Assembly (NCBI GenBank): GCA_001603075.1
Contig: LVBB01000123.1
Coordinates: forward strand, 1-40,641
Length of the DNA stretch: 40,641 bases
Source of the DNA: Phycisphaerales bacterium Planc_01
Lineage (GTDB): Bacteria > Planctomycetota > Phycisphaerae > Sedimentisphaerales > Anaerobacaceae
Reading direction: 5' to 3'
The notes under the pieces: generated by a model
Told to the model about the DNA's origin: nothing
Seen by the model: the letters and a program-made list of their open reading frames with translations, nothing else
Databases searched by the model: none
In this document: positions 26,391-34,488 of the stretch, one piece after another
Position numbering within the stretch: position 1 is the first letter of the stretch
How the letters are laid out: each line of letters starts with the position of its first letter
Made by a program: the position numbers and the translations under genes

Positions 26391-27392
26391 TCACTTCCCC
26401 GATGTCTCAGTGCGACGTTTGAACGTCGTCGCGCTGCCGGAGCCGGATTCACGGTAGCCACTGGCTGTGACGCCGTATTCGGTTACCTTGAAGCCGTCCT
26501 TGCCGATTTGGCTGTAGACGTGCTCGATCCTTTGAACGGTCCCATCGGGCCGGCGCATCTCGTGCCGGTTGACGACGCCGTCGTAGCTCTCCGTCCAGGT
26601 GCTCTTCCAGAAGCCGCCCATGTTGTCGGCGCCGACCTGCACGACCTCTTCGCCCGACGGGGCCAGCGTGATGATCCCGTAGTAATCGAATCGGCCCATC
26701 TTCGCCTCGACGAGCACGGCGTTCTTGTCGAGGGCCCATGTGTACTGTACGTTGATGTCGCCATCGACCTGTTCGTTGCGTCCGGCCCAGCGGCCGATCA
26801 TCGAGTCGTATCCATACTGTGCCAGCAGGTCGCTGAGCGTCATCCGATTTGTCCAGCCGGCGCTGGGAGCGGCAGCCTGCGGGGCCCCCGCCTTCTGGCG
26901 CTTGTAGGTGAGCGTCGCCCATGGCTGTGAGGCACGATAGCCGTTGGACTCGATCGGATACATCGTCGCCTTCAACGTATCGGCGTCGATGCGGCTGTGA
27001 ACGATCTCCGCCCTCTGGGTTTCGCCATCCGGCTGCTTTCGCTCCATCCGATAGACCGCCGTGCCGTATTCATCTCGCCAGACCCCGCTCCAGGCGGCCC
27101 CTTGGTTGTCCGCGCCGATCTGGAGGATCTCTTCGCGATAGGGAACGTACACGATCAGGCCGTGATAGGCCAGGTCGCCCATTTGGAAGCTCGATACGAT
27201 GGCGTGCCGGTCCAGCACCCACCGTTGCTCGAACGTGACCTCCTGGCCCTCGTCGGTCGTCGCGACCCATCGGCCAGCCAGCCAGTCATATCCACCCTGA
27301 GCGACCAGGTCACCGAGAGTGTCCTGCGCCGCCACGGGCCCGGCCAGAATCGCCGCCAGCCCCACAACCAACACGATGCTCTTCGCCTTCAT
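26391..27392 (-). CDS. Exported protein with two tandem copies of one domain
   Basis: 333 residues with a signal peptide (MKAKSIVLVVGLAAILAGPVAA). The mature part is an internal duplication of about 140 residues. Copy one starts LGDLVAQGGYDWLAGRW and contains LQIGADNQGAAWSGVW. Copy two starts LSDLLAQYGYDSMIGRW and contains VQVGADNMGGFWKSTW. Both end in TTFKRR / TLTYKR-type strands, with a linker rich in Ala and Pro between them. The pattern (GRW, repeated beta strands, a closing strand) suggests a lipocalin-like or DUF1579-like barrel, but I am not certain of the family. Start 27392 has AAGGGAG upstream; the frame extends to 27485 without a signal. It stands alone with its own terminator. Confidence 0.75.
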   Translation of the reverse strand: MKAKSIVLVVGLAAILAGPVAAQDTLGDLVAQGGYDWLAGRWVATTDEGQEVTFEQRWVLDRHAIVSSFQMGDLAYHGLIVYVPYREEILQIGADNQGAAWSGVWRDEYGTAVYRMERKQPDGETQRAEIVHSRIDADTLKATMYPIESNGYRASQPWATLTYKRQKAGAPQAAAPSAGWTNRMTLSDLLAQYGYDSMIGRWAGRNEQVDGDINVQYTWALDKNAVLVEAKMGRFDYYGIITLAPSGEEVVQVGADNMGGFWKSTWTESYDGVVNRHEMRRPDGTVQRIEHVYSQIGKDGFKVTEYGVTASGYRESGSGSATTFKRRTETSGK

Positions 27393-27554
27393 AGTGTTCT
27401 CCCTTGCCTGCATCCAGATCATTCGCTCACGGGCTCTTCTGAAAAGCCCATACCGGGAAACGACGTGTACCCACCAATATAACAACCCGCGAACGGTCTT
27501 GCCTTAGGGAGTCGGATTTTTTCTCGGGGAGGAACAGCGTCGTCGATGGCAGAC

Positions 27555-30500
27555 TCACCGGTCGCCCCCCGGCTGGATTTCGATGCCGAGTTCCTTGAGC
27601 CGGGGGCCTATCACGTACTCCACGTGCCCGTCGACGAATGCGATAACGGCCTGGTCAGACGCGAGCCGGCTGTAGGCTATGGGCTTGCCTCGCTCCGCCA
27701 GGTTGGCCGGATTGAGGCCCTTTCCTGTGTACTCGACGTTCTCGCGTACCCACACCCAAAGGCCCTCGTCACGCGCGAGATAAGGCTCAAGCATCTCCAA
27801 TGTATCGGGAAAAACGCCCTCGTTGTCGCTGGCGTACAGATGTGCGGCCAAGGCCACTTGCTTGAGATGGCTCATCACCGTCGCACGAGCTTGATTCTCG
27901 ACCTGTTCACGGACTGCTTGCGCCACTGCCGCCCGCAACTCCGGCGAGACGGCGGAGGTCGGGGCAGGCACGATAGACTGCTCGGCGATCCGGCCGTCGC
28001 GGATGACGACGCGCAGCGTGGCGCGGTTGTTGGTTTCGTCGGGTTCCGCAACCAGGTTGCCAGGGTCGAGGACGACGTGGACTTCGTTGGCGCCTTCGCG
28101 GAGGGCGAATTGCGAGGAGACTTCGTTCCAGGTCTGGCCCGGTTCGAGCGGTCCGGCGCCGTGCATCATCGGCGTGGCGATCTCGGGATCGCCTCGATAG
28201 AAGTGGACGGCGATCTTGGGGCAGGTGGCGACACCCCGGTTTCGGATCGAAACGATGGCCGCGAAGGTACCCAGGTCCGGATCGGCACGCAACTTGAAAT
28301 CCTCGATGGCGACGTCGCATCCGGTGACGGCGCTTCGCGCGATGTTCTTCGAATCGGCCAGCAGCTTCGACTGAGCGATCAGGCGTTTGAGTTCGTCGGG
28401 GGCGGGCGCCGCCAGCAGGATCACGTGCAGCCCGCGCGTCTCTTTGGACACTTCCACGGTCTGCCCCTGCCGAAGCGTCTGCTCGATCCGGTCCCACGGC
28501 ATGGGCAGCAGGTCCTCATAGCCGGCGGGAATGCGGTCCTCGCTATCGAGCGTGAAGACCAACACGAGGAGGTCGTGCGAGGTGCGATGGTGCGTCCCGT
28601 CGAAGATCTCGTCGTAGGCTTCCTTGGCGTGATAGCGTCCCGCCTTGTTCCAGGTCCAGTCCTGCGTCCGGGAGTTGATGGCGTCGAAGACGTTGAACCC
28701 GACCCGCGACGGACTCAGGATGAAGATGTCGGGCAGGGATTCGGCCGCCTTTGCAGGCATGAGTTCCTTGAACCGCTCGGGGCTGACGAAGTCGACGGTG
28801 GCATCGACATGGAGAACGTTCGTGCCCTTGCCTTCGGCCAGGAGGGTCTGGTCGTAGGCCAGCACGCGTGCGGGATTGTCGTTGGCCTTGACGCCTTTGC
28901 CGAGGTACTGCACGTGCTCGCGGTACCACGGCAGAAGCCGCGCGTCCATCTCCCATTCAAAGCCCGTTCGCTGCGCATAACGATCCCCATATATCAGCGC
29001 AAGCTCTTGCTCCATGCTCCGTTGCGCAGGGTCCGTCGCTCTGTCCGACTGCAAGTCGTCAAGGGTATCCGGAAATGTGTCTGCGTGGTCTTTGGCGTAG
29101 ATTATCAGGCTCCGACCGAGGGCGCGCAGGCGCCTGGCAGACCAACGAAGGACAGCCGGCGATGGCTCATCCGGCGCGATGCCGAGTTCCTCCAGGCGTT
29201 CGGGACTTTCAAAGGCCACAGACGTATCGAGGTGCAGCACGTTGGTGCCGCCGCCGCGTTCGTAGAGCGTCTTGTCGTAGGCCACCGGATCATCCGGCTC
29301 ATTACTCACCGTCATGCCCCGGCCCAGGTAGGCGACGTTCACCTGCACCCAGGAGGAGGACAGATCACCCGCTTGATCGATCTCGTCCTGCACCTCGGCC
29401 AGCGTTCCAGGCAACTTGTCATCGTGGTCGTTGGCGTAGATCAACAGCGTCCGCCCCAGTGCCGATAGTTGCGCACGGGAATGATCGCGATCCGGCCTCG
29501 CAGATTCATCACCGACGCGGGACGTGCCACCCTCGGCGACTATGGGCTCGACGGTCACGACGGTCTTGTGCGCCGCTCGCAGCGAGACGTTCTTGAACTG
29601 CGCCCACTCGTAGGGTCGGACCTGGTATTGGAACTCCCGGACCTGATCGGGCTTCAGACCGGGAAAACGTGTCGTCATCTGGTCCATGTTCCCCGAGGCG
29701 ACGGAGCCGCCGGGAGGCGCGTGGATCACGCCGTCTGCGTCGATGGCGATGATCCGCTCCGTTCTGTCTTTGAGCCATTCGGCGGTCGCGACGACATACG
29801 TCCCGGCCGAATCGGCGAACGCCTGAGACCACAGCACGCCGCTGCGTCCACCCGAATTCATCCGCTTGCCGTCGTGGCTCGATATGGTGCTCCAGGGTCC
29901 GGTGGCAAGACCGACGCGCAGCGCTGTCTGCTGCTGTCCGGCTTTCATGTTCGCCACCGCGGCGGTGCAATCGTCGAGACGCATTCCATCGATGGTCACA
30001 ACGTCGCACGACCCTTCCCAACTGTCGGCGCCTTCGATCGTATTCCATCGGATTTCCAGATCGTCGGGGCCTGCCACGCGCAGCATGAAGCCGTAGCGAT
30101 TGCTCGCCGGGACCACGTGCGACTTCGTCGCCTGCAATGGAGGCGCAAGCGGCGAGCCGTCCGGCTTCCAGCAAATACTCCTCTCGTTCGGCCAATTGCA
30201 CACGCCCAGGAGTTCAGCGGTAACGCCATTGGACAGTCGCGCAATGAACAGCGGCTTTTCCGCTTCCGTCTTTGCCCTGGCCATGGGCAGCAGCACGGCG
30301 GCGGCCAGTGCGATGGCCAGCAGGCCGGCGAGGCCCAACTTCGCGGTTCTCGGTTTCGGTTGTGTGATCATGTGTCTAATCCTCCCTTCTAACGCCTTTT
30401 TGGATTCCGCAATCCCGATTAGACGCAGGCCGAGCGCCGGCCTGTGGAAAGTCATCTCCGCCAGATCGATCAGGGTGGTGCCGTAGCTCTCGGCCTCCGC

Positions 30501-31382
30501 GTCGAGAGCCACGAGCACCGTTTCATCGACCGCCTGCTCGCGCAGCCGCCGCACGATGGCGTTGGCCAGCCAGAGCAAGGGGTGATAGAAATACACGACC
30601 AGCAGCAGCGTCTGGGCGAAATTGACCCACAGGTCCGCCCGGCGGACATGGGCCAGCTCGTGGACCAGGACCGTCCGCAGACGCTCGCCGTGGAGGCCTT
30701 CCGCCAACGATGTGGGCATGAGCACGACCGGACGGAACAGGCCGCACACCGCCGGCCCCGGCGCATCGTCCGACAGTCGCAATGCCGGGCAGGACCGAAG
30801 CCGCAATACCGCCGCGCACTGAGTCAGCACGTCCGCAAGCGCATCCGACGCCGGCGTGCTCCGGCGGATCAGCTTCCTGACGTACTGCACCCGCCGCAGC
30901 AGATAGACGGAAAGGGTCAGCACGCCCGCGAACCAGCCGAGGAAGACCCAGCCTCGCCAGGTGATCGCCGGCCGGACAGCCGCAGGAGCCGCCGGCGCAG
31001 GAACCACGTCGGCGTGCGAAACAACTACGGCGGGTGCCAAAACGACAACCGGCTCCCGGCGAACGGGCCGAACCTCAGCAATCGGCGCCGGCTGCTCCAC
31101 AACAGGCTCGGTCTGTTTCTGAGAAACCGTCTTGTGTTCGGGCCGGTAGTAGCCGATACTGGTCGGCAGCGACAGCGTCGGAGGCAGCAGGAGCTTGACG
31201 AACACCAGCATCCACATCGCATAGCGAACCACCGCGCGAACGCGCTGCCGCAGCAGCAGGTCCAGCGCCAGCAGCGCCGCGATCAGGACGCTCACCTGGA
31301 CGAAGACGCTCCAGGCGTGCGAACAGAACATCTGCCCGACGGCGTTGAGCATCTCGACTCCACTATCGATCACGCGATCCAT
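27555..31382 (-). CDS. M56 (BlaR1-like) metallopeptidase with CARDB and three pseudopilin-like modules
   Basis: 1275 residues. The membrane part (1-370) has about five segments (near 25-45, 52-70, 143-162, 258-275, 348-368) and the M56 zinc site HELAH (241-245) with REQAVDE (Glu287) downstream. The rest lies after the last membrane segment, probably outside. A beta-rich region covers about 380-615. Modules starting ALGRTLLIYANDHDDKLPGTL (near 641) and ALGRSLIIYAKDHADTFPDTL (near 754), and LKQVALAAHLYASDNEGVFPDTL (near 1172), resemble the core of DUF1559/H-X9-DG pseudopilins; only the last keeps FVDGHVEYV. A CARDB-like domain occupies about 1020-1128. There is no penicillin-binding domain. GGAGGT precedes the ATG at 31382. 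The upstream gene encodes a BlaI-type repressor, its likely cleavage target. Confidence 0.85.
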   Translation of the reverse strand: MDRVIDSGVEMLNAVGQMFCSHAWSVFVQVSVLIAALLALDLLLRQRVRAVVRYAMWMLVFVKLLLPPTLSLPTSIGYYRPEHKTVSQKQTEPVVEQPAPIAEVRPVRREPVVVLAPAVVVSHADVVPAPAAPAAVRPAITWRGWVFLGWFAGVLTLSVYLLRRVQYVRKLIRRSTPASDALADVLTQCAAVLRLRSCPALRLSDDAPGPAVCGLFRPVVLMPTSLAEGLHGERLRTVLVHELAHVRRADLWVNFAQTLLLVVYFYHPLLWLANAIVRRLREQAVDETVLVALDAEAESYGTTLIDLAEMTFHRPALGLRLIGIAESKKALEGRIRHMITQPKPRTAKLGLAGLLAIALAAAVLLPMARAKTEAEKPLFIARLSNGVTAELLGVCNWPNERSICWKPDGSPLAPPLQATKSHVVPASNRYGFMLRVAGPDDLEIRWNTIEGADSWEGSCDVVTIDGMRLDDCTAAVANMKAGQQQTALRVGLATGPWSTISSHDGKRMNSGGRSGVLWSQAFADSAGTYVVATAEWLKDRTERIIAIDADGVIHAPPGGSVASGNMDQMTTRFPGLKPDQVREFQYQVRPYEWAQFKNVSLRAAHKTVVTVEPIVAEGGTSRVGDESARPDRDHSRAQLSALGRTLLIYANDHDDKLPGTLAEVQDEIDQAGDLSSSWVQVNVAYLGRGMTVSNEPDDPVAYDKTLYERGGGTNVLHLDTSVAFESPERLEELGIAPDEPSPAVLRWSARRLRALGRSLIIYAKDHADTFPDTLDDLQSDRATDPAQRSMEQELALIYGDRYAQRTGFEWEMDARLLPWYREHVQYLGKGVKANDNPARVLAYDQTLLAEGKGTNVLHVDATVDFVSPERFKELMPAKAAESLPDIFILSPSRVGFNVFDAINSRTQDWTWNKAGRYHAKEAYDEIFDGTHHRTSHDLLVLVFTLDSEDRIPAGYEDLLPMPWDRIEQTLRQGQTVEVSKETRGLHVILLAAPAPDELKRLIAQSKLLADSKNIARSAVTGCDVAIEDFKLRADPDLGTFAAIVSIRNRGVATCPKIAVHFYRGDPEIATPMMHGAGPLEPGQTWNEVSSQFALREGANEVHVVLDPGNLVAEPDETNNRATLRVVIRDGRIAEQSIVPAPTSAVSPELRAAVAQAVREQVENQARATVMSHLKQVALAAHLYASDNEGVFPDTLEMLEPYLARDEGLWVWVRENVEYTGKGLNPANLAERGKPIAYSRLASDQAVIAFVDGHVEYVIGPRLKELGIEIQPGGDR

Positions 31383-31439: not shown

Positions 31440-31524
31440 GGAACAATGGAATACTGGAATCGTGGGGTGTGGCGCTGGCGACTCCGTCTTCCAACGCTCC
31501 AATCTTCCATTATTCCATTCTTCC
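31440..31524. repeat. Inverted pair of 8-bp tandem repeats between blaI and the M56 gene
   Basis: The arms 31440-31459 and 31505-31524 are reverse complements at 18 of 20 positions, with a 45-nt centre. On the minus strand one side reads as five 8-bp units of the form TGGAANNN (TGGAAGAA, TGGAATAA, TGGAAGAT, TGGAGCGT, TGGAAGAC) and the other as three units ATTCCANN. The element lies in the 185-bp gap of the blaI-M56 transcript, where the RNA could fold into a long stem. Confidence 0.6.
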
Positions 31525-31567
31525 AGCACTCCCGAATCTGCCATCTCGAATCAGACAAGGATGGTCG

Positions 31568-31987
31568 TCATTCCTGTCCAGTTTCGACTTTGCGAACGAG
31601 TTGACGCAACTGCGCGGCCTCGTCCTTGGAGAGCCCCTCGTGCTCGATGAGGAACTGCATCATCGGGGTCAGCGCGCCGTCGAAGGCCCGCTGGAGCATC
31701 TTGCGGAACTCAGCCCGCTTGGCCTCGACGTCACTGAGGGCCGAGCGGAACAGTTGCAGGTTGCGAATCCGCTCGACGACGAGGTAGCCCTTCTCGGCCA
31801 TGCGATCCATGGTGGTCTTGACGGTGCTGTAGGCCCAGTCCTTGGTGTCGGCCAGCGCCTCCTGCACAGCGCCGGCGGTGCACGGCTCCTGCTCCCAGAC
31901 CACCTTCATGATGGTCCATTCGGCCTCGGTGAGTTCCTCCGGCGTCTTCGCCCGCCGGCCCTTCTGCTGCTTCGATGATTCCGCCAT
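31568..31987 (-). CDS. BlaI/MecI/CopY-family transcriptional repressor
   Basis: 139 residues. The winged-helix domain (about 16-90) has the family pattern LTEAEWTIMKVVWEQEPCTAGAV and STVKTTMDRMAEKGYLVVER; the C-terminal helices (about 95-135) should form the dimer. Such repressors are inactivated when a partner M56 protease cuts them. That partner is the next gene (185 bp downstream). AAGGAG precedes the ATG at 31987; the open frame up to 32050 covers the presumed operator. Because the partner has no beta-lactam sensor, the signal is probably not a beta-lactam. Confidence 0.92.
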   Translation of the reverse strand: MAESSKQQKGRRAKTPEELTEAEWTIMKVVWEQEPCTAGAVQEALADTKDWAYSTVKTTMDRMAEKGYLVVERIRNLQLFRSALSDVEAKRAEFRKMLQRAFDGALTPMMQFLIEHEGLSKDEAAQLRQLVRKVETGQE

Positions 31988-31999
31988 TTCGCTGCTCCT

Positions 32000-32028
32000 T
32001 ATTCGACACGGACCGATACTATTCGACA
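32000..32028 (-). promoter_or_regulatory. Candidate BlaI operator: two TGTCGAATA boxes
   Basis: Minus-strand TGTCGAATA occurs at 32028-32020 and at 32008-32000, a direct repeat with a 20-bp period just before the blaI ribosome site. The first box overlaps a possible -10 (TAGTAT) with TTGCGG 17 nt before it. An eight-of-nine copy (GGTCGAATA, 31390-31382) sits between the ribosome site and the ATG of the M56 gene. Confidence 0.45.
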
Positions 32029-32103
32029 GAAATAGAATCCGCAAGCACAAAAATGAAATTCTTCAAAGGTTTTTTTGCGGGGCATCCCCTGCTCTATTCA
32101 CAA

Positions 32104-32147
32104 GTCCTATCGGTCCAATAGGACCAATAAGACCGATAGGACCTATG
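32104..32147. repeat. Degenerate 9-bp repeat forming a 12-bp inverted repeat
   Basis: The units CCTATCGGT, CCAATAGGA, CCAATAAGA, CCGATAGGA and the partial CCTATG follow each other at a 9-bp period (32106-32147). The ends GTCCTATCGGTC (32104-32115) and GACCGATAGGAC (32131-32142) are perfect reverse complements around a 15-nt centre. The element lies between the blaI promoter and the 3' end of the isochorismatase gene. Directly after it GGCAGGCTC is repeated at 32155 and 32166. Confidence 0.6.
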
Positions 32148-32198: not shown

Positions 32199-32738
32199 CT
32201 ATTTGACCAGGCGGGCGATGGGCTTGAATTGGGGGTGCTCGGCGGTCTTGATCAGATCGAAGAGGACCATTTCGGCGCTGGCAATGGGAACGCCCTCGAA
32301 CGCCATACGCTCCAGGGCGATTCGCTTGTTCTCAGCGGTCCGGGACGAGACGGCGTCGGCGACGACGGTCAGATCGTAGTCCTCCCACATCAGGTCCATG
32401 GCTGTCTGGTAAATGCAGACGTGGGTCTCGATGCCGCAGAGCAGCACCTGCCTGCGTGCGAGCGCATCGAGCTGGATGTTGAACGGCTCGTGGCCGACAC
32501 AACTGAAACTGGCCTTGTCGATCGGCTCGATGCCGCTCAGCAATTCGGCGATCTCGGGCACGGTCGGCCCAAGGGCCTGTGGCGCCTGCTGGCACCAGAG
32601 AATGGGGATCTCCAGGATCTTGGCCGCCTGGATGAGGATGCGTGCGTTCTGGAAGAGGGTTTCTTTGTCGGCCATCAACTGGGCGAGCTTGCCCTGGATG
32701 TCGACGACGACGAGGCAGCACTGATCGATTTCGAGCAT
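32199..32738 (-). CDS. Isochorismatase-family cysteine hydrolase
   Basis: 179 residues of the isochorismatase-like alpha/beta fold. The catalytic triad is Asp13 (LVVVDIQGKL), Lys75 (PIDKASFSC) and Cys108 (GIETHVCIYQTA), with the usual cis-peptide region before the Cys. The short length and the ETHVC motif resemble the YcaC/YecD-like hydrolases of unknown substrate and not the siderophore enzyme EntB. Substrate cannot be given. GGAGAG precedes the ATG. It lies 59 bp downstream of the anti-sigma gene on the same strand, so it may be co-transcribed with the sigma factor. Confidence 0.9.
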   Translation of the reverse strand: MLEIDQCCLVVVDIQGKLAQLMADKETLFQNARILIQAAKILEIPILWCQQAPQALGPTVPEIAELLSGIEPIDKASFSCVGHEPFNIQLDALARRQVLLCGIETHVCIYQTAMDLMWEDYDLTVVADAVSSRTAENKRIALERMAFEGVPIASAEMVLFDLIKTAEHPQFKPIARLVK

Positions 32739-32797
32739 TCCGTTGCTCTCCGTTGCGGCGCGGCCGGAAGAAAGCGCTTCCGTGCGCTACTTGCCGG

Positions 32798-33808
32798 TCA
32801 CTGCGTGTTGAGGAGGACGATTGTCATGGTCGTCTGCACTCCGCCCTGCGGCGGGGCAGGAATCGCCTTGGTCGCCGGATCGTTCGAGGCCAGCCGCGGC
32901 CTGGGAATCTCGGGAGTGGCGATCATCATGGTCGTGTTGTTCTCGGGGGTCGAGAGGATATCCCCTCCAGGCATTGCCTGGGCAAAGCTATTCAGGACCA
33001 CTACGCCGCGGGCCACTTGCACGCTGGCTTCGGTGCTGTCCTGCTTGACGATCTGTGCGATCTGACGCACAGTCACCGGCTCGATAACAACCGGGTCTGC
33101 GAAGCGGTCCGTATCGACCACCAATGTCGCCGAGTCGAAATTCGTCCAGATCGTGCCGAGATCGGCCACGAGGCGGTCGAGCCCTTCCCGGCTGCATTCG
33201 ATCCGGTAGACTCTTCTATCGGCCAGGGTCTGCGTCTCGGCGAACCCTTTCAGGCCGTTGTCTTCAATGGCCGCCTTGATGAATGCGTCGGCCTGGGTCA
33301 GCGACGCCGTCCGCAGTTCCAGTCGTCCGGAGAACCCCTGTCCGGCCACGACGACAGGCGCTGGGGCTACGGATGGCGCGTTGGGAATCACCTGGATCGG
33401 ACGCGGCGCATCGGCCACGGGTCGGACCGATACGGCCGGCGAAACCGGCGCGACGATCTGATAAACGACCGCCCCGAGCCCCCCCATCAGGGCGATCATC
33501 GCAGCGGCCGCCAGGAATCGACGAATCTTCAGGTGCCGCGCCCCGGCTCGCGACACGGTCGGCGCCGCATGGCTGTCCAGCAGCGTCCGTCGTTCCAGGG
33601 ACCGCTTGACTTGTTCGAGCATATCGATCGGTGCCGGCTCGGCCGGCAAGGCGTTGACCAGATTCTTGCAGTTCTGAAGCTGCCGCAGACGCCGTGCCAC
33701 CTCTGCGTCGCGGGCCACCAGGCGCTGCACCTCCGTCTGCTGGCGGAGCGGCAGTTCGCCGTCAATGAAACTGCAGAGCAGCTCATCGATCTGTGGATTC
33801 GCCTTCAT
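32798..33808 (-). CDS. Membrane anti-sigma factor
   Basis: 336 residues. The N-terminal helical domain (about 1-60) starts IDELLCSFIDGELPLRQQTEV, the typical opening of anti-sigma domains, but without the full His-x3-Cys-x2-Cys zinc motif. One membrane segment (about 97-118, FLAAAAMIALMGGLGAVVYQIV) separates it from a Pro/Val-rich linker and an outer domain (about 165-300) of mixed alpha/beta type that I do not recognise. Its start overlaps the sigma stop codon by 4 bp (ATGA), so the pair is translationally coupled. It should hold the ECF sigma at the membrane until an envelope signal arrives. Confidence 0.85.
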   Translation of the reverse strand: MKANPQIDELLCSFIDGELPLRQQTEVQRLVARDAEVARRLRQLQNCKNLVNALPAEPAPIDMLEQVKRSLERRTLLDSHAAPTVSRAGARHLKIRRFLAAAAMIALMGGLGAVVYQIVAPVSPAVSVRPVADAPRPIQVIPNAPSVAPAPVVVAGQGFSGRLELRTASLTQADAFIKAAIEDNGLKGFAETQTLADRRVYRIECSREGLDRLVADLGTIWTNFDSATLVVDTDRFADPVVIEPVTVRQIAQIVKQDSTEASVQVARGVVVLNSFAQAMPGGDILSTPENNTTMMIATPEIPRPRLASNDPATKAIPAPPQGGVQTTMTIVLLNTQ

Positions 33809-34413
33809 TTCTGCATAGCCTCCAAAACCTCTCTCAGATGGCTCCTGGCACGGCTGAGCCGGCTCCGGACGGTCCCGAGCTCAATGTTCAGAACGTCCGC
33901 AATCTCGGCGTAGTTCATGCCTTCGATATCACGGAGCACCATCACCGCCCGCTGAGGCTCTTCGAGCTTCAACAGGGCTTGCTTTGCCAGATCACACAAC
34001 TCCCGACGCTGTGCCAGGACCGCCGGATCGGCGGCGCTTTCGTCGCTCAAGAAATCCTTGAGCCCCTGCCTTGCCTGACTGTCGGACTCGTCTTCCTCGG
34101 CATCGAGAGAACGAGTCGCCATCTTGGCGTTTCTCTGACAGTAGTTCAGCGTCAGGTTGACGGCAATGCGAAATACCCAGGTGTAAAAGCTACTCCTGCC
34201 TTTGAACTTGTCGATGCTCTCAATGACTTTGACAAACGTCTCCTGCGTAAGTTCCGCGGCATCGTCGGAGTTGCCGGAGATTTTCAGGATCACGTTGAAA
34301 ATGCGGCCCTGGTACTTGAGGATCAGCCGCTCCATGGCCTCCAGATCGCCGCGCTGCGACCGCTGGACCAGCACCGAGTCGTCGATGTTGATACTTGCTG
34401 CGCTCAAAGGCAC
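33805..34413 (-). CDS. ECF RNA polymerase sigma factor (RpoE-like)
   Basis: 202 residues. Region 2 contains LTQETFVKVIESIDKFKG and YTWVFRIAVNLTLNYCQR; region 4 contains PQRAVMVLRDIEGMNYAEIAD and the recognition helix GTVRSRLSRARSHL. There is no extra domain. I choose the GTG at 34413, since GAGAGG lies about 6 nt before it; the frame is open to 34464, where the residues look non-coding. The membrane anti-sigma gene overlaps its end by 4 bp. A sigma70-like promoter is at 34517-34489. Confidence 0.93.
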   Translation of the reverse strand: MPLSAASINIDDSVLVQRSQRGDLEAMERLILKYQGRIFNVILKISGNSDDAAELTQETFVKVIESIDKFKGRSSFYTWVFRIAVNLTLNYCQRNAKMATRSLDAEEDESDSQARQGLKDFLSDESAADPAVLAQRRELCDLAKQALLKLEEPQRAVMVLRDIEGMNYAEIADVLNIELGTVRSRLSRARSHLREVLEAMQK

Positions 34414-34488
34414 CGTTTTCCTCTCATTTGAAGGGTCTGGCGGGTCGGCGGCCCTGCCCCACACAATCCTACCGTCTAAGGGCCGGTC

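Follow-up and report, generated by a model that had tools for sequence, protein, structure and literature searches.

The known role of BlaR1 and MecR1 is the sensing of beta-lactams. The locus considered here raises the question of what a receptor of this type may do once its exterior has been replaced by other parts. It lies on contig LVBB01000123.1 of Phycisphaerales bacterium Planc_01 (assembly GCA_001603075.1), of which positions 1 to 40,641 were analysed as one stretch (40,641 nucleotides, hereafter the window), and it comprises the gene of a membrane protease of the M56 family, directly preceded on the same strand by the gene of a BlaI-type repressor. The protein is probably a signalling antirepressor of the BlaR1/MecR1 type with a rebuilt ectodomain, BlaI autorepression and ligand-triggered cleavage of BlaI. 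Its pilin-like heads would serve as extracellular recognition beads, one type of ectodomain among several in clade-wide BlaI-M56 circuits. The sensing of pilins or of secretion is one reading among several, and pilin-like heads alone do not show pilin sensing.

The Protease Core

The receptor gene and its protease part occupy the following positions:

27555..31382, minus strand: M56 receptor of 1275 amino acids, an open reading frame (ORF) from the ATG at 31382
30267..31382, minus strand: M56 core, residues 1-372 (Pfam, alignment with BlaR1, hydropathy)
30648..30662, minus strand: HELAH, residues 241-245 (alignment with BlaR1)

An earlier note on this DNA had given the same reading frame, the same strand and HELAH at the same residues; an alternative longer in-frame start is present at 31544. 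Pfam, searched at E 1, places PF05569 (M56) at residues 23-336 (1e-39), with M48 and TraG_N as matches below the cut-off, and phmmer aligns residues 150-307 with the solved BlaR1 (8exs, E 4e-4). H241/E242/H245, D250, E282, D286 and Y300 of the receptor correspond to H201/E202/H205, D210, E242, D246 and Y261 of BlaR1, the catalytic residues used for comparison being those named in the cryo-EM paper PMC9834060. Both gluzincin motifs, HEXXH and EXXXD, are present together with the supporting D and Y. Judged from its sequence, this is a BlaR1-type M56 protease core with intact catalytic residues, the normal membrane protease that had been supposed, and a dead protease was ruled out by the retention of all the BlaR1 catalytic residues. 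Hydropathy peaks fall at residues 26-44, 48-66, 111-129, 144-162, 259-277 and 349-367, with none beyond 367; by analogy with BlaR1, four of these six may be taken as transmembrane helices, 259-277 as a re-entrant stretch and 111-129 as a loop.

The exterior had been described as devoid of a penicillin-binding domain, and Pfam indeed matches no penicillin-binding family in the receptor at E 1. The NCBIfam model blaR1_generic reaches 114 bits against a cut-off of 400, and its match is limited to residues 28-341. An overlooked penicillin sensor was ruled out, as neither Pfam nor NCBIfam matches one.

Composition of the Ectodomain

Behind the core follow, in this order, a beta domain (Mid), two pilin-like modules (M1 and M2), a segment X, a CARDB domain and a third module (M3):

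29547..30260, minus strand: Mid domain, residues 375-612, predicted to be all-beta and recurring in other M56 tails
29169..29483, minus strand: pilin-like module M1, residues 634-738 (repeat; profile and model comparison)
28752..29144, minus strand: pilin-like module M2, residues 747-877, in which about 30 amino acids are inserted (repeat; profile and model comparison)
28338..28745, minus strand: segment X, residues 880-1015 (sequence comparison)
28017..28253, minus strand: CARDB, residues 1044-1122 (Pfam PF07705, 30.7 bits against a cut-off of 22.7, 3.7e-7)
27579..27905, minus strand: pilin-like module M3, residues 1160-1268, of the terminal cap class (repeat; module tree)

The three module copies that the earlier note had recognised are repeats by pairwise blastp, with 39% identity between M1 and M2 (2e-24), 30% between M1 and M3 (2e-9) and 28% between M2 and M3 (2e-8), the comparison being made without composition correction and the E-values being simple estimates for a four-sequence search. 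This similarity ruled out chance repeats. A fourth copy occurs in a 2079-amino-acid M56 protein elsewhere in the same genome, and two further ones in proteins of this genome without an M56 match (L022, which matches DUF3352, and L023). Pilin-like bodies were also seen appended to other proteins (L033, L045, L034, L022, L203, L204, L207, L209), the hosts being proteins with several hydrophobic stretches, one single-pass protein and DUF3352-matching ones such as L022.

CARDB lies between copies two and three, as had been proposed, but segment X, a stretch of about 135 amino acids between copy two and CARDB, had been missed, and residues 375-612 (Mid) form an additional separate domain. Stretches 47% identical to segment X occur in L093, a 4038-amino-acid M56 ORF, and in L094, where M56 was not seen; relatives of CARDB are found in the tails of other M56 proteins.

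Structure models cover Mid and the M1-M2 tandem. The Mid model aligns with immunoglobulin-like (Ig-like) sandwiches, the best at Z 7.0 over 70 residues, a middling match that may mean merely a common arrangement. Adhesion is a frequent role of CARDB and beta-sandwich domains. An envelope polymer sensor, in which the beta domain, CARDB and the pilin-like heads would bind a polysaccharide or a component of the sacculus, would agree with this Ig-like alignment, but Pfam gives no match to a carbohydrate-binding family, and we regard such a sensor as unlikely.

Pilin Likeness of the Modules

The modules are read as pilin bodies cut loose from their membrane helix (alpha1-N). The receptor sequence contains no FTLxE-type prepilin peptidase segment before the modules, and hydropathy gives no peak past residue 367 that could stand for a hydrophobic alpha1-N. 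With the DUF1559/H-X9-DG pseudopilins (PF07596, TIGR04294) they have in common the alpha1-C helix, the YANDxxxxxP turn and the NVLFxDxHVEF strand pair. Unlike those, they lack the prepilin peptidase site, alpha1-N and the H of H-X9-DG, are shorter in body, stand in tandem and are mounted on a membrane protease. Prepilins of the same genome begin with FTLVELLVV, continue with NLAGIGKAMLIYANDYDDELP and carry HQGEGQNVLFLDSHVEF at the far end. The third copy had been credited with the H-X9-DG hallmark of planctomycete pseudopilins; FVDGHVEYV is present there, but H-X9-DG itself is not kept. Across the 40 modules compared, the position ten residues ahead of the D is never an H; 35 modules keep the D and 12 the G next to it. 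The NCBIfam H-X9-DG model (TIGR04294) scores 12.4 bits against a cut-off of 19.

The likeness was assessed at the level of profiles and of predicted folds. A profile of the 40 modules, taken from 15 ORFs (12 of them with M56 seen; a sixteenth, L089, was dropped because its match was too short), was aligned by hhalign with a profile of 12 prepilin bodies from which alpha1-N had been removed. The match scored 98.0% (E 2.3e-13), while 30 column-shuffled pilin profiles reached at most 0.3%. Without realignment the path spans module positions 4-92 and extends to the C-terminal strand pair. The module-bearing L022 also matches DUF1559 itself (25.4 bits, the cut-off being 23.3), but the match is confined to the helix part and is 27 residues long. 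The M1-M2 model (mean pLDDT 84.3, pTM 0.55) shows in each module four strands besides one long helix and some shorter ones, and in VIA-align, whose outcome is independent of the choice of prepilins, the pilus subunit PilA4 of Thermus thermophilus (6xxd) ranks first. This alignment covers 94 residues at 3.5 A with 10% identity and Z 7.2, although the tool warns that a Z below 8 can mean merely a common arrangement; the next row has Z 3.1, and ComGC of S. sanguinis 2.2.

Several circumstances of these comparisons, like that warning, tell against a pilin origin. Default hhalign realignment leaves 29 confident columns, which correspond to the helix. The comparison is not free of selection, because 10 of the 12 prepilins lie in loci fetched with the module profile, a bias for which the shuffles do not control. 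Foldseek at E 0.001 returned nothing for Mid and no PDB match for the M1-M2 tandem, and the PilA4 match came from re-alignment of the 515 best Foldseek candidates. The claim that the modules are pilin-like is nevertheless supported by the profile match and the PilA4 alignment of the predicted fold, Foldseek alone being not significant; neither of the outcomes that the earlier note had named as refuting, modules whose predicted folds are unrelated to each other or to pilins and an M56 core degenerate in relatives, was found. A search of the module profile against the sequences of PDB chains gave apolipoprotein A-IV (8e-4) and others over the helix, which were judged to be chance matches.

Conservation and Rebuilding of the Ectodomain

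The two relatives L127 and L083 illustrate how unevenly the receptor changes. Their cores are 93% and 85% identical to ours, respectively. M3 stands at 84% in both, M2 at 87% and 70%, and M1 at 89% in L127, with no more than 57% in L083. Segment X and CARDB are absent from both and Mid is absent from L083, other segments or modules being found instead. The ratio of nonsynonymous to synonymous substitutions (dN/dS) was estimated simply and carries no error bars. Against L127 it is 0.24 in the core, 0.28 in Mid, 0.22 in M1, 0.30 in M2 and 0.35 in M3; against L083 it is 0.26 in the core, 0.25 in M2 and 0.22 in M3. By these sequence comparisons the modules are under purifying selection, and degenerate modules were ruled out (0.22-0.35 for L127 and L083). 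In a FastTree phylogeny many of the 40 modules cluster by position. A terminal clade (support 0.98) unites the last modules of our protein and of those in genomes G002, G005, G004, G036 and G029 and also takes in a penultimate one from G002, and M2-type modules form a separate clade (0.96). A module pair has been duplicated in G036 (support 0.99 and 0.97), and copy number among relatives ranges from one to six, with six in L082/L127. Together, the dN/dS values and the positional classes point to constrained domains, a conserved terminal cap and a quickly rebuilt ectodomain.

The variable copy number, the duplicated pair and the conserved terminal class would also suit a stalk, in which the modules act as spacers between the membrane and the terminal cap or CARDB, with recognition taking place elsewhere. 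A pure spacer, however, would not need the positional conservation of the M2-type modules, and several relatives have a single module; a stalk seems unlikely. Far less probable is a non-signalling surface adhesin that kept M56 as its membrane anchor. The ectodomain does exceed the core in length and variability, but the catalytic residues are kept, the core dN/dS stays at 0.24-0.26, and relatives retain BlaI as well as the dyad described below.

The BlaI-Type Repressor and Its Putative Promoter

The antirepressor reading assigns the receptor a repressor partner, as the earlier note had done. The adjacent gene fits this role by its PF03965 and MecI matches and stands behind an operator-like promoter:

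31568..31987, minus strand: BlaI-type repressor, likely start MAESSKQQKG (Penicillinase_R PF03965, 7.2e-30; MecI 1okr, E 8.6e-14)
32039..32044, minus strand: putative -35 element TTGCGG of the BlaI-M56 promoter (sequence reading)
32016..32021, minus strand: putative -10 element TAGTAT, 17 nucleotides from the -35 element (sequence reading)
32021..32038, no strand: BlaI-type dyad ATTCTATTTCTGTCGAAT in the spacer between the two elements (sequence and relatives)

The start at 31987 is preferred because an ORF that opens with TTG at 32050 would extend over the promoter. A BlaI homologue also lies upstream in those relatives that were inspected with a fetched upstream stretch. The 17-nucleotide spacer holds most of ATTCTATTTCTGTCGAAT, and the promoter in front of BlaI is predicted to be operator-like. 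In the whole genome of 5.65 Mb, the degenerate form ATTCKAYNNNNRTMGAAT, which was built from this site and its relatives, has a single match, at this promoter. The dyad is retained at the corresponding place in relatives and is a perfect palindrome in L055/L084 and in L130. The fetched loci contain 88 non-redundant BlaI-type genes, and in 48 of them ACANNTGT, a motif picked after inspection of the relatives' dyads, is flanked by TTGNNN and TANNNY; 100 block-shuffled controls gave a mean of 0.3 and a maximum of 3. Parallel BlaI-M56 operons (L055, L130, L058, L152, L159) have the ACANNTGT core in common and differ in the outer bases. Such variation among operons suggests that the circuits may be insulated from one another.

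Other observations on the repressor and its sites count against autorepression and BlaI cleavage as proposed here. The window's own dyad is imperfect, its left arm lacking ACA, and the 48 do not include the promoter in which it lies. N101-F102, the pair at which BlaI is cleaved according to PMC9834060, aligns to F-L in this repressor. Genome scans for the dyad with at most one mismatch established no target outside the operon. Nine other sites match with one mismatch, all of them inside some ORF of at least 174 amino acids; five lie in long frames with a third-position GC content (GC3) of at least 0.77, and the remaining four (L220, L224, L225, L227) may be intergenic. A reversed pattern gave 1 match against 10, a control that is not composition-matched. 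The BlaI/MecI/CopY consensus TACANNTGTA was tried on the window as well; it gave three one-mismatch matches, a number reached in 23 of 100 shuffles and hence uninformative.

Proposed Mode of Action

In the antirepressor reading, BlaI would sit on its own promoter and hold the BlaI-M56 pair at a low level. A ligand of the envelope or from outside the cell, probably a protein or a polymer, would contact the pilin-like heads, most likely at the terminal cap module, which is conserved. The contact may shift the last transmembrane helix and switch on the cytosolic protease; the cut of BlaI would then raise the expression of the BlaI-M56 pair and perhaps of genes reached by read-through.

The scheme follows BlaR1/MecR1-BlaI/MecI of S. 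aureus and B. licheniformis. The likeness lies in the M56 core with HEXXH and EXXXD, a C-terminal part, presumably external, that follows the last hydrophobic stretch, the adjacent repressor gene and a dyad within the promoter spacer. The differences lie outside the membrane and around the operon. Instead of a penicillin-binding domain, of which none was matched, the receptor has an ectodomain of about 900 amino acids made of pilin-like modules, a beta domain and CARDB, and Pfam found no resistance gene and no pilus or type II secretion system (T2SS) component among the six neighbouring proteins scanned. A receptor with pilin folds for its tandem beads would show this fold in a new role. In the literature searched, which was thin in subscription journals, no title or abstract opening among the papers listed describes such a receptor or the wider use of BlaI-M56 pairs as a re-wireable chassis.

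Distribution and Exchange of M56 Ectodomains

Within our genome and its relatives, the whole protein finds an M56-type match at E 1e-10 in 43 of 61 genomes, and 30 of the 61 have the module at E 1e-6. In a sample of the phylum the module was found in 10 of 199 genomes, our own included; the module ORFs of the other nine show no M56 in the visible stretch. A two-pattern scan of genome contigs for the module yielded 14 loci, all assigned to Planctomycetota/Planctomycetes or, in six cases, to Phycisphaerae/Sedimentisphaerales. M56 is in the same ORF in 12 of them and in an adjoining ORF beside a masked stretch in L135, and none was seen in L137. In these scans the combination of module and M56 was seen only in Planctomycetota. 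Modules are carried by 21 of 102 non-redundant M56 ORFs, a set enriched by module searches.

Other M56 proteins bear quite different tails. A hand-picked, non-random set of 63 tails (59 chosen among the best whole-protein matches and four from our genome) was divided into halves of 31 and 32, and counts were taken among the 25 commonest families of each half. PD40 propellers were found in 7 of 31 and 9 of 32 tails, CarboxypepD_reg in 7 and 8, AhpC/TSA in 4 and 3, and LRR_4 in 3 and 2; ankyrin occurred in 9 of the 32 tails of the second half and was outside the 25 commonest families of the first. This variety suggests that the pilin-bead protein is one member of a radiation of BlaI-M56 pairs with exchanged ectodomains. 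Pairs present in many copies, with exchanged ectodomains and seemingly differing operators, would amount to a general signalling chassis that can be re-wired.

Frames without a tail were also seen. At L012:4509-5432 (minus strand) an M56 frame of 308 codons has no tail, its stop (LDLIGIA-stop) falling directly ahead of the last transmembrane helix, and M56 matches with one in-frame stop occur in G001-G005, G007, G029 (TGA) and G036 (TAG), L012 being the case inspected.

Secretin-like domains were detected by a local profile in 7 of the 102 M56 ORFs, five of which also carry modules. Pfam backs the secretin-type tails of L133 (which also has Secretin_N), L136 and L013, with L139 below the cut-off; those of L131, L146 and L161 appear with the local profile only and are not shown by Pfam. 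The co-occurrence of secretins and modules is biased because four of the five double carriers came from the module search; three of the seven also seeded the local secretin profile, and an association is not claimed.

These domains bear on the idea that the receptor monitors pilins or secretion, its heads mimicking pseudopilins and binding the cell's own pilins, its pseudopilus or its cargo, so that the protease would report the state of secretion. The genome offers the surroundings for such a monitor, with 19 matches to the T2SSE family, 14 to secretins (12 of them outside a 1474-amino-acid M56 ORF) and prepilin bodies that match the modules, and the five double carriers, biased as they are, point the same way. 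PilS-PilR of P. aeruginosa provides an analogy only, as a membrane sensor connected to pilins: in PMC6058289, PilS is said to interact directly with PilA. PilS, however, is a histidine kinase, and the pilin is its ligand instead of belonging to the sensor. The modules lack alpha1-N, and the title of another study places the PilS-PilA contact within the membrane. The absence of pilus and T2SS components from the six scanned neighbours and the many unrelated tails on other M56 proteins of these genomes also speak against a secretion monitor, which we judge unlikely. Improbable, too, is the broader proposal that a lineage of Planctomycetota turned pilin heads and secretin domains into M56 ectodomains, the state of the pilus/T2SS or of its cargo being read by BlaI proteolysis. 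If true, it would mean that secretion is monitored by a domesticated mimic of the cell's own fibre.

Gene Neighbourhood

Upstream of the BlaI-M56 pair, positions 32199-34464 of the window encode an extracytoplasmic function (ECF) sigma factor, an anti-sigma-like protein and an isochorismatase-like protein. The order ECF sigma factor, anti-sigma-like, isochorismatase-like and BlaI is common to L127, L083, L085 and L130; L092 keeps the isochorismatase-like gene and BlaI as far as its locus reaches, and in L084 and L086 the upstream 2.5 kb that were fetched contain neither an isochorismatase nor a sigma gene. Downstream of the M56 gene, positions 26391-27485 (minus strand) encode a protein of two similar halves of about 150 amino acids each, without a Pfam match at E 1. 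An 89% identical copy follows the M56 gene of L083, and none was found in the L127 locus. Short repeats flank the repressor gene, with CCAATAGGA units upstream of BlaI (32115-32143) and, on the side of the M56 gene (31487-31525), a degenerate array of TCTTCCAA. The intergenic DNA between BlaI and M56 has one other, partial copy in the genome, at 74%.

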